Of a DNA stretch of 64,000 bases, positions 9,667-15,144 are shown piece after piece. The position numbers and the translations under genes were made by a program. How positions within the stretch are numbered: position 1 is the first letter of the stretch; each line of letters opens with the position of its first letter. Origin of the DNA: Acidimicrobiales bacterium (lineage in GTDB: Bacteria; Actinomycetota; Acidimicrobiia; Acidimicrobiales; Poriferisodalaceae). Under the pieces are notes generated by a model that saw only the letters and a program-made list of their open reading frames with translations, was not told where the DNA came from and made no database searches. The stretch is from the NCBI GenBank assembly GCA_009843525.1, contig VYDH01000018.1, positions 62,001 through 126,000 of the forward strand. The letters are read 5' to 3'.

Positions 9667-10212
9667 TCAGCTGCTCGCCGGCACCTCGTTGAGCAGGCCG
9701 GTGTCGACGTCGTAGATGAAGCCGCGGACTGCGGTGTCGTGCTCGATGAACGGTGAGGCTCGCAGCGTCGCGATGGCGGCGCGCACGTCGTCGGCGGGGT
9801 CCGCGAACGAACAGATGGGCCAGCTTGGCCGGGCACCCAGGCGCTGGCCGAGGACGTTGCTGAAAGCAGCTTCGTCGAGCCCGCACATGCCGCACTTCGT
9901 GTGATGTATGACCAATATCTCCCGGGTGCCGAGCAGCTGCTGTGAGATGCACAGCGAGCGCATGACGTCGTCGGTCATCACACCGCCTGCATTGCGGATG
10001 ACGTGGGCTTCGCCGACTGTCAAACCCAGCTCTGCCAGCGGGTCCATCCGGGCATCCATGCAGGTCACGATGGCCACCTGACGGCTGGGTGACGCCGCCA
10101 TGCCGGGCGTCTTGACGGCATCTGCTACCTGTCGGTTGTGCTCGATCAGGTCGTCTGCCGCGGGGTGGAACTCGGACGACTCCGGTTCGCTGGCTTCGCT
10201 GCCTTGGCCCAT
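9667..10212 (-). CDS. Beta-carbonic anhydrase
   Basis: Zinc enzyme that interconverts CO2 and bicarbonate, 181 residues. Zinc ligands C51, H104 and C107 and the D53/R55 dyad are visible in TCMDARMDP and HHTKCGM. The protein has no signal peptide and should be cytosolic. A GAGG lies 7 bases before the ATG. A perfect 16-bp palindrome and tRNA-Lys lie just upstream. Many small beta-type enzymes of this size are dimers or tetramers; the oligomer here is not predictable. Confidence 0.9.
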   Translation of the reverse strand: MGQGSEASEPESSEFHPAADDLIEHNRQVADAVKTPGMAASPSRQVAIVTCMDARMDPLAELGLTVGEAHVIRNAGGVMTDDVMRSLCISQQLLGTREILVIHHTKCGMCGLDEAAFSNVLGQRLGARPSWPICSFADPADDVRAAIATLRASPFIEHDTAVRGFIYDVDTGLLNEVPASS

Positions 10213-10251: not shown

Positions 10252-10261
10252 GAGCCTGTGG

Positions 10262-10335
10262 TACGCCCCCTGGGACTTGAACCCAGAACCTGCGGATTAA
10301 GAGTCCGTTGCTCTGCCAAATTGAGCTAGAGGCGC
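10262..10335 (-). tRNA. tRNA-Lys(CTT)
   Basis: Full cloverleaf on the minus strand. The acceptor is GCGCCTC/GGGGCGT with two wobble pairs, the D arm is GCTC/GAGC, the anticodon loop is CTCTTAA (anticodon CTT), and the T arm is CTGGG TTCAAGT CCCAG. CCA is not encoded. Confidence 0.95.
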
Positions 10336-10391
10336 ATGGTGCCCCGCAAGGCTAACGACACCTCCCGACACAAGCGGTCGGTGAGCGGCGG

Positions 10392-10466
10392 GCGGATCGA
10401 GGGGATTCGAACCCCCGGCCTCCAGTGCCACAAACTGGCGCTCTAACCAACTGAGCTACGACCCGC
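10392..10466 (-). tRNA. tRNA-His(GTG)
   Basis: Minus-strand cloverleaf with anticodon loop TTGTGGC (anticodon GTG) in stem CCAGT/ACTGG and T loop TTCGAAT. The eight-pair acceptor includes the histidine-specific extra G(-1) opposite C73, which confirms the identity. CCA is not encoded. It is followed on the same strand by tRNA-Lys after 56 bases, so the two may be co-transcribed. Confidence 0.95.
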
Positions 10467-10560
10467 ACGGGGTGGTCAAGGATGCCACGGGTGACGTGGC
10501 CTCGCTACCGGATTTCAGGTGTCTGGCACCTGTCTTCTGCCGGGAGCTGTGCCGACCGCG

Positions 10561-10572: not shown

Positions 10573-11592
10573 GTGAGCACTCAGACCGTCGCTGCCCGCC
10601 AGCCACCTGTTGAGTACATCCCGCGAATCACGGCCCAGTACATCGGCCTGGGTTATGGCGAGTACCGCTGGGTGCACAGCGAGACGCCGTCGCCGTGGAC
10701 ACCGCTGACCAAGCCGATCTCGGAGTGCCGCGTCGGACTCATCGCCACCGGCGGCGTCTATGCCGTGGGCCAGACGGCGTTCCATTACCGCGACGACACG
10801 ACGTACCGGGCCATCCCCACCGACGTGGACACGTCCGACCTGCGGGCGACACACTTCGCCTACGACCTGACCGATGCTCGCTCCGACATCAACTGCGTAT
10901 TCCCCATCGAGGCCCTGCGTGCCCTGCGAGACAGCGGCGAGATCGGCGAGCTGGGCCCGAACGCCTACACCCTGATGGGGGGCATCTACAGCACCCGGCG
11001 CGTTCGCGAGGAGCTGATCCCGGAGCTGGCCAAGCGCTGCGTGGCCGATGAGCTCGACGTGGTGCTGCTCGTGCCGGTGTGACCTGTCTGCCATCAGACC
11101 GGGGGTCTGATCGCGAGGTCCATTGAGGCCGAAGGAATCCCGACGCTGTCGATGTCGAGCGCACGCGACATCACCCGGGCGGCCTGGCCGCCTCGATCCG
11201 TCTATCTGGACTATCCGCTGGGCCACACCTCGGGCAAGCCGCACGAGCCGGAGCTCAACCAGCAGATCCTGCGCGACACGCTGGCCGCCTTCGAGAACTT
11301 GCGCGTGCCGGGTTCCATGGCGCACCTGCCGTACCGCTGGTCGGACTCGGACCGCTGGAAGGACCGGGTGTTCGCCCCGTCCACGAAGGCCGAGGAATTG
11401 CCCGAGTGCGCCGTGCCGACCGGAGACGGATCGGCCGAGGCGAGCGCCGAGCCAAGCGGTAACGGCGGTTACGAGGACGACCGTGTCGAGCGCCACCCGA
11501 CGCCGCAATACCAGTCTGAAGACGACGCAGCAGCGGCTCGCGCCAGCCACGACGGCGAAGAATGCCTCGTCTGCGCGGGCATCGACTACTGA
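10573..11592 (+). CDS. Selenoprotein of the glycine/sarcosine/betaine/D-proline reductase B family (in-frame UGA = Sec)
   Basis: The gene is read as 339 residues with selenocysteine at codon 170 (TGA at 11080-11082). The N-terminal half ends ...VVLLVPV, and the same frame continues directly after the TGA with PVCHQTGG and a conserved C-terminal half (GLIARSIEAEGIPTLSMSSA, then LDYPLGHTSGKP). UxxC followed by HQT is the redox motif expected for the reductase B family (GrdB/PrdB); homologues with Cys at the U position are common by general knowledge. A perfect 8-bp hairpin starts 10 bases after the TGA, as in bacterial SECIS elements. Partners GrdA/PrdA and the selA, selB, selC and selD genes are not in the window. 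The substrate is unknown. The GTG at 10573 is the likely start. Confidence 0.85.
11093..11111 (+). promoter_or_regulatory. Candidate bacterial SECIS element
   Basis: ATCAGACC and GGTCTGAT form a perfect 8-bp stem with loop GGG. The loop lies 19 to 21 bases after the UGA at 11080-11082, within the spacing known for bacterial SECIS elements, whose loops typically present unpaired G. The hairpin is inside the coding sequence, as expected for SelB-dependent recoding. Confidence 0.75.
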
Positions 11593-11643: not shown

Positions 11644-12594
11644 ATGACTGAAGCGTCCGACGGAGCCCCGGAGCGCCGCGCCTCGGTTGGCGCCAAGTCA
11701 CCCGGGAGCGGGGGCGACTACGACCCCGAAGCCGTGCCTGTGCGTGATGCGGCCACCGTGATGATCCTGTCCGACGAGAACGATCCCCATGTGCTGATGC
11801 TGAAGCGCAACTCCAGGTCGATCTTCGTGGGTGACATGTGGGTGTATCCTGGCGGCGCCGTCGATCCCGAAGATGCCACCCAGATCGCTGACGAGACGGT
11901 GTCGGGCCTGACCGATGACGATGCTTCGTTTCAGATCGGCATCGAGCGGGGCGGCATCGCCTTCTGGGTTGCAGCGCTGCGGGAGACCTTCGAGGAAGCG
12001 GGCATCCTGCTGGCCCATCACGACCACCCGGTCGGTGTGGACGATCCCCGGGACCTGCCCTCGGGCATCATCGATCTTTCGCCGCCGGATGTGGCCGAGC
12101 GGTTCTCGCAGTACCGGGACGAGGTCAATGCCGGCGAGCGCGACTTCATCGAGACGGTGCGCAGTGAAGACCTGCTGCTCGACGGCGACAACGTCTATTT
12201 CATCGGCCGCTGGGTGACACCGCTGGGTTCCCCTCGCCGCTACGACACGCGGTTCTTCCTCACCGCCATGCCTGACGGCCAAGTGCCGCTGCCCGATCAC
12301 GACGAGGCGGTCGAGCACCAGTGGGTTCGCCCTGCGGATGCCATCCGGCGCAACGAGACCGGCGACATGGTGATGATGACGCCGACGATCGGCATGCTGC
12401 ATCGACTCGCCAGATTCGGAACGGTGGCCGACGCGGTCGCTGCCGCCGGCAGGGGCACGCCTGACGACGACGAGCACGTGCGGATCCGTTACGACAACGA
12501 GGGGCCGCACCGGATCGCCTTCCCGGCTGACCCGGACTATCTGGAATCCGACGGCAGCACCGAGGTGGGCATCCTGCGCTGGCCGCTGGGCTAG
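11644..12594 (+). CDS. Nudix hydrolase with interrupted Nudix box (NUDT19-like)
   Basis: 316-residue Nudix protein. The glycine part YPGGAVDPED (68-77) is separated by about 30 residues from AALRETFEEAGIL (110-122), which carries the R-E..EE catalytic core. A split box of this kind is typical of NUDT19-like enzymes, several of which hydrolyse CoA or acyl-CoA diphosphates; that substrate is inference here. The first 30 residues are low-complexity. It lies 51 bases downstream of the selenoprotein on the same strand and could be co-transcribed. Confidence 0.8.
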   Translation: MTEASDGAPERRASVGAKSPGSGGDYDPEAVPVRDAATVMILSDENDPHVLMLKRNSRSIFVGDMWVYPGGAVDPEDATQIADETVSGLTDDDASFQIGIERGGIAFWVAALRETFEEAGILLAHHDHPVGVDDPRDLPSGIIDLSPPDVAERFSQYRDEVNAGERDFIETVRSEDLLLDGDNVYFIGRWVTPLGSPRRYDTRFFLTAMPDGQVPLPDHDEAVEHQWVRPADAIRRNETGDMVMMTPTIGMLHRLARFGTVADAVAAAGRGTPDDDEHVRIRYDNEGPHRIAFPADPDYLESDGSTEVGILRWPLG

Positions 12595-14475: not shown

Positions 14476-15144
14476 ATGCCGCACGGCTCACTTTCTGACG
14501 CTGGCGATGCTCTGACCGGCCCCGATGCCGCAGAGCCGTCGTCGATTGCTGACACCAATGGCGCCGTCACCGATCAGCAGGTGGACACCGACCGCATCGA
14601 GAAGGCGGTGAGGGAGATCCTGCTGGCGATCGGCGAGGATCCTGACCGTGACGGGCTGCAGAAGACGCCCAAGCGAGTGGCCCGCATGTATGCCGAAGTG
14701 TTCGCCGGGCTGCAGGAGGACCCCGAGCACCACCTGAAAGTGCAGTTCGAGACCGGACATGACGAGATGGTCATGGTGCGGGACATCCCGTTCTATTCGA
14801 TGTGCGAGCACCACCTGATGCCGTTCGTGGGTCGGGCGCATGTCGCCTACATCCCCGGTGAGCGGGGCATGATCACCGGGTTGTCGAAACTGGCGCGACT
14901 GGTAGAGGCCTACGCCCGCCGTCCCCAGGTGCAGGAACGCCTCACCACCCAGGTCGCCGACAAGCTGATGGAGGTGCTCGAGCCCAGGGGCACCCTCGTG
15001 GTCGTGGAGGCCGAGCACCAGTGCATGTCGATGCGGGGGGTGCAGAAGCCCGGCTCGCTCACCATCACCTCGGCGGTGCGCGGCCAGTTCCGCAACACGG
15101 CTACCCGTGCGGAGGCGATGCACCTCATCGGCGTCGGCCGCTAG
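14476..15144 (+). CDS. folE: GTP cyclohydrolase I
   Basis: First step of tetrahydrofolate (and other pterin) synthesis: GTP to 7,8-dihydroneopterin triphosphate. The 222-residue protein has the zinc site in MCEHHLMP (C110, H113) and HQCMSMRG (C183), and the GTP-binding [21 protein letters not shown]. The first 38 residues are a variable tail. In many actinobacteria folE sits with ftsH or other folate genes; here it stands alone, with folC 17 kb away. The start is leaderless-type. Confidence 0.95.

Follow-up and report, generated by a model that had tools for sequence, protein, structure and literature searches.

Selenoproteins named after proline reductase PrdB have been known from ocean surveys since 2005 and are among the selenoproteins encountered most frequently in such surveys. 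In the available text of the Sargasso Sea survey of 2005, 42 genes for UxxC selenoproteins carry the PrdB name (PMC1088965), and the corresponding part of the 2008 GOS survey gives 235 Sec and 110 Cys sequences for PrdB (PMC2398784). D-proline reductase is still listed, as TIGR04483, in the portion available of a 2026 review (PMC13188914). A further described system is the fluoroacetate reductase FarB/FarE of Synergistota. There, according to the accessible part of the report, the Sec of a GrdB-like selenoprotein is proposed to attack the C-F bond, which provides a precedent for a non-amino-acid substrate (PMC10838667). The protein described here is a variant of the PrdB-named ocean selenoproteins. 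It is likened to the Sargasso Sea and GOS proteins by a UxxC motif, the pfam07355 type and the surface-ocean microbes concerned, and the survey descriptions suggest that the ocean PrdB set probably includes its clade. The survey proteins differ in having been named by similarity, and a missing PrdA, a UPxC motif or a CxxC tail is not discussed in the available text of either survey (PMC1088965, PMC2398784). FarB/FarE differs in that it comes from an anaerobe and in that FarB has a pyruvoyl-type partner, FarE (PMC10838667). In the literature searched, as far as the available text of those papers extends, no description of a PrdA-less clade or of the CxxC tail was met.

The window, the 64,000-nucleotide stretch of DNA analyzed here, is part of one contig (C10) of a draft genome of 3.34 Mb that is 93.79% complete in 43 contigs. 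Its nearest public relatives are Acidimicrobiia MAGs, and Candidatus Poriferisodalis, a genus of Acidimicrobiales, is the name carried by several protein clusters that match closely. The PrdB-like selenoprotein gene lies at 10573-11592 on the + strand, as do all window features given below unless marked otherwise, and encodes 339 residues from a GTG start, with a predicted Sec at position 170. An alternative in-frame GTG start is located at 10519. The sequence-only reading had described a single frame interrupted solely by a TGA at 11080-11082 and continuing with PVCHQTGG, and the reading frame bears this out; the terminal stop of the frame is also a TGA. Frame reading and alignment place the predicted Sec170 and Cys173 in a U-P-V-C active-site motif (11080-11091). 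Other window neighbors are a carbonic anhydrase-like gene (9667-10212, - strand), tRNA-Lys and tRNA-His (10259-10465, - strand) and GTP cyclohydrolase I (14476-15144, + strand). Two more PrdB-like genes, each with one TGA, occur in the same genome (L010 on contig C24 and L011 on contig C18), and L011 has a gene for a PhyH-type dioxygenase on its upstream side.

Conservation, alignment and dN/dS were used to assess the predicted Sec170 codon. A TGA occupies the site in all 33 of the nearest public loci (L022-L054). For the 10 nearest sequences, mean dN/dS was 0.076 in the part preceding the TGA and 0.135 in the part following it, and the final 17 codons gave 0.066. Of the 61 related genomes, 43 gave a match, mostly with a single internal TGA. 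Homologues of ∼41-53% identity have CPVCHQ at the TGA position, and Cys stands at the site in 29 long-form rows of the alignment. The draft genome contains a tRNA-Sec (anticodon TCA) together with selA, selB and selD, over curated cut-offs. Both the Cys homologues spanning the TGA and the Sec genes presupposed by the claim of recoding are therefore present. The SelD of this genome (L021, contig C5) has an in-frame TGA of its own, reads GUACK and is apparently a selenoprotein itself. Five long-form homologues (P0004, P0010, P0015, P0016 and P0017) have Thr at the Sec position and keep the second Cys. A paralogous clade (L055, L061, L062, L064, L066 and L068) reads UPLDHQ, with Sec kept and Asp in place of the second Cys, and L155 is a Cys version of it, CPLDHQ. 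Given these Thr and Asp substitutions, the U-C pair is not universal.

The hairpin that had been described within the gene, a perfect 8-bp stem with a GGG loop beginning ten bases past the TGA, was found as stated (ATCAGACC-GGG-GGTCTGAT, 11093-11111). Folding of one sequence only predicted a longer hairpin in which a lower stem encloses the 8-bp stem (11081-11120). The fold had an energy of -20.4 kcal/mol (z = -2.45), and 4 of 200 shuffles were equally good. Across 44 distinct Sec sequences, 94.0% of cells were paired compared with a shuffled mean of 89.6, cells changed on both sides numbered 16 compared with 4.6, and none of 500 shuffles reached either value. The covariation score of 0.147 exceeded both the shuffled mean (0.065) and the best slid version (0.110), and again 0 of 500 shuffles scored as high. 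Two weaker measures were less clear: 76 of 500 shuffles reached the 3 pairs with change on both sides, and 21 of 500 reached the 6 further pair types. In L064 and L068, Gln CAG and Leu CTG are replaced by CAA and TTG, synonymous on both sides and with pairing kept. In five gammaproteobacterial sequences, Thr ACC and Gly GGT have become Ser TCC and GGA, the Gly change being synonymous. The stem is broken at pair 19-27 in L049 and L051, at the loop-closing pair 21-25 in 11 sequences and at pair 15-31 in 8. An Rfam search of the window at gathering scores listed tRNAs as its sole entries. The covariation supports the in-gene SECIS-like hairpin well and, together with the Sec genes, the conserved TGA and the dN/dS values, argues strongly that TGA 11080-11082 is a predicted Sec codon inside one gene, as the sequence-only reading had claimed.

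The further assignment to the "reductase B family" held at the level of the superfamily and failed for PrdB and GrdB proper. The Pfam profile GRDB (PF07355) matched residues 44-167 with 30.5 bits, over its gathering cut-off of 22. By contrast, none of the curated NCBIfam models for glycine, sarcosine, betaine and proline reductase B reached its cut-off with the window protein. The top model, PrdB TIGR04483, gave 168.6 bits with a cut-off of 300, and TIGR01918 and TIGR01917 gave 49.1 bits (cut-off 65.45) and 47 bits (cut-off 602.2), respectively. The positive control, a genuine PrdB encoded beside prdA on a Terrisporobacter plasmid (L147), scored 424.7 bits. The active site is UPVC in the window protein and UGTC in four PrdB and two GrdB rows. 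Most of the 53 PrdB-like rows have UPxC or CPxC, the exceptions being L070 (UYIC), L081 (UWLC) and the rows L071 and L079, which have neither motif. The 59-row tree placed all 53 PrdB-like rows together, split from PrdB and GrdB by a branch with support of 98/97. Membership of PrdB or GrdB was rejected on these scores, motif and clade and on the failure to find PF09338 described below. The window protein nevertheless shares with PrdB (TIGR04483) a homologous catalytic domain, Sec in UxxC and a hairpin past the UGA; apart from score and motif, it differs in its N- and C-terminal extensions, in its CxxC tail and in that no PrdA-type partner was found. With GrdB/GrdF/GrdH (TIGR01917/TIGR01918), it shares the GRDB domain over cut-off and Sec-x-x-Cys, but the match is confined to the C-terminal part of the models at 47-51 bits, under every cut-off, and no GrdE-type partner was found.

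The pyruvoyl partner was sought with the profile PF09338, which covers both PrdA and GrdE. The partner subunits had been noted as absent nearby, and this result could be extended: no part of the draft genome yielded PF09338, although this absence is not absolute given a genome 93.79% complete in 43 contigs. The same search was positive in other genomes, including 2 of 61 related genomes and 1 of 25 picked from the loci. It found nothing in 42 of the 43 related genomes having a relative of the window protein, and the sole exception (G045) has only a weak PrdB-like match. Across 395 genomes of the class Acidimicrobiia, 133 had a PrdB-profile match (none over cut-off), 24 had PF09338 and 23 had both, leaving PF09338 missing from 110 of the 133; since the PrdB profile also catches GrdB, genuine GrdB/GrdE pairs probably account for part of the 23. 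In all three annotated regions with a genuine prdB, prdA was adjacent. Given that no gene for a partner subunit was found in the draft genome, the protein likely works alone.

AlphaFold2 predicted a confident body for the window protein (mean pLDDT 88.0, pTM 0.87), and structure searches returned no close solved structure. Residues 279-297 (11407-11463) form a linker predicted to be disordered (pLDDT < 50). Residues 311-320 are predicted to be ordered (pLDDT 96) and include the segment PQYQSEDD (residues 311-318, 11503-11526), which in the alignment is common to most long-form Cys homologues. The protein ends in ECLVCAGIDY, and conservation and dN/dS draw attention to Cys331-x-x-Cys334 of this CLVCAGIDY tail (11563-11574), the proposed dithiol arm. 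The last nine residues (331-339) are predicted less surely, with a pLDDT of 60. In the gammaproteobacterial homologue L048, the entire C-terminus, including the CxxC, is predicted to be ordered (blocks at 91, 96 and 92; tail pLDDT of 91-96 over residues 281-310).

In a tree of 85 rows, the C-terminal CxxC was present in 34 of 36 long-form Sec rows and in none of the 29 long-form Cys and 5 Thr rows (0 of 34 Cys/Thr proteins); the outgroup rows (13 Cys and 2 Sec) also had none. With five loci added, two with the tail (L123 and L124) and three without (L125, L150 and L151), the long-form Sec total came to 36 of 41. The five tail-less proteins (L052, L054, L125, L150 and L151) imply that Sec does not depend on the arm. 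C-terminal halves with the tail numbered 113 among the best 120 of 174 matches, a figure that may favor tailed matches because the query contained the tail; the other 7 looked shortened or frame-shifted by eye. Two changes suffice to explain the tail label on the tree, and three independent pairs give no significance, so that the association of Sec with the tail is not an independent statistical result. A strict rule that Sec goes with the tail was rejected on the same pairs and the five exceptions. The Cys and Thr rows are nested inside the tailed Sec rows (59-row tree, 100/98), a position suggesting a single, joint loss of Sec and tail.

Directly downstream of the selenoprotein gene is a gene for a NUDIX protein (11644-12594), which is kept in 19 loci of the lineage, the window included. 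The NUDIX ATG overlaps the selenoprotein stop in all ten of the loci L031-L040 (TGATG or TAATG), so that NUDIX translation may depend on selenium there; the window has no such overlap. Seven loci out of 81 searched, all in a related Cys-type clade, have a glutaredoxin gene directly downstream, namely L056 (6762-7121), L058, L059, L060, L063, L065 and L082, and a CoA-transferase family III gene stood behind the glutaredoxin where looked at, including L056. The PrdB-like gene copy of L082 has an internal TAA. Forty-one further loci yielded glutaredoxin at L135 (the L056 place again), at L136/L158 (one place) and at L154, a Sec form; at most 3 of 10 distinct further Cys-type places had it, and the rest had none. 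Given that the glutaredoxin clade includes the Sec form L154, glutaredoxin does not simply replace the arm, and the idea that it does so in trans in Cys forms was rejected on this locus and on the Cys-type places lacking it. Of the 21 loci in a related short-form clade that have a peroxiredoxin neighbor, 18 carry a UGA in the TPVU motif of the peroxiredoxin, which lies just upstream; at these 18 loci (L086 and 17 others), two predicted selenoproteins, the short-form PrdB-like protein and the peroxiredoxin, thus stand side by side. The neighbors of the long form include acyl-CoA enzymes, CoA-linked enzymes and hydrolases, and the 15 listed loci included no peroxiredoxin. Alpha/beta hydrolases appear repeatedly: a gene for one follows both the paralogue L010 and L052, and P0048 contains one as a fusion.

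A stand-alone selenol-thiol reductase fits these data. The more specific proposal is that this predicted Sec protein related to PrdB, for which no PrdA/GrdE-type partner gene was found, acts alone as a thiol-dependent reductase, with the Cys331-x-x-Cys334 arm serving to recharge its Sec170-Cys173 pair, a proposal we regard as evenly poised. The sequences themselves show a constrained frame, a hairpin that covaries, Sec genes in the genome, homologues with Cys, a clade apart from PrdB and GrdB, a failure to find the partner and a conserved tail; the substrate, the arm function and the reaction steps are what we infer. Here, the selenolate of Sec170 would attack a small electrophile, which may be an activated organic acid or an acyl-CoA-linked compound, and Cys173 and Sec170 would then form a selenenylsulfide. 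The C-terminal dithiol would swing in to reduce this bond and could itself be re-reduced by thioredoxin or a glutaredoxin. The glutaredoxin and peroxiredoxin genes seen beside relatives in other clades count in favor of the proposal as redox partners there. The proposed arm may be likened to the C-terminal CxxC tail of ribonucleotide reductase and to the C-terminal redox tail of thioredoxin reductase. An arm is the simplest way to account for a conserved CxxC at the end of a partnerless Sec enzyme, although we consider the chances that it is correct to be roughly balanced.

Several other explanations bear on this proposal. Gene callers in public databases split such genes at the TGA into halves, as would be expected were the TGA a true stop between separate genes or within a decayed gene; we attach a negligible probability to this explanation, which was rejected on the conserved TGA and low dN/dS on both sides and has the Cys homologues, covarying hairpin and Sec genes against it. 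It is also highly improbable that the protein belongs as a subunit to an ordinary reductase of the D-proline or glycine type, with a pyruvoyl partner that either escaped the search or has diverged strongly. Superfamily membership and the incomplete genome would allow for this, but PF09338 was detected by the same search elsewhere and not in this genome or in 42 of 43 relatives, true prdB lies beside prdA in the three annotated regions, and the UPVC motif, separate clade and sub-threshold score all point away from such an enzyme.

A CxxC motif can also ligate metal. The tail could thus be non-catalytic, binding a metal such as zinc or holding a partner protein, and its clade-specific distribution, with very few gains or losses, and its predicted ordered packing on the body in L048, as for a structural element, are consistent with this. 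There are, however, just two tail cysteines and no further conserved pair, and the tail is missing from every long-form Cys/Thr protein, such that a non-catalytic role appears unlikely. Somewhat less doubtful is an enzyme that handles mainly peroxides or disulfides, a detoxifying thiol-selenol oxidoreductase, rather than one that reduces organic C-X bonds. The 2005 survey, in its available text, gives UxxC as a frequent thiol-redox motif (PMC1088965), and the related short-form clade has its UGA-containing peroxiredoxin upstream. That clade is, however, only distantly related (about 35% identity), and the long form, with no peroxiredoxin in the 15 listed loci, has acyl-CoA enzymes, CoA-linked enzymes and hydrolases among its neighbors.

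For the family as a whole, the stand-alone reductase leads to a broader reading that we advance tentatively and at less than even confidence: that many ocean and soil selenoproteins, classed as "PrdB" over the past twenty years, are not proline reductases and belong to a widespread, PrdA-less stand-alone clade, in whose long form a dithiol arm would re-reduce the selenium and in which selenium would set NUDIX translation where stop and start overlap. A practical warning is that automatic annotation splits genes for PrdB-like selenoproteins at the TGA. To our knowledge, the sole PrdB reaction described requires a pyruvoyl partner, and yet this lineage apparently has none. Separating the PrdA-less clade from true PrdB would make it testable what non-Stickland bacteria reduce with these proteins and whether a built-in Cys pair serves as the reductant.
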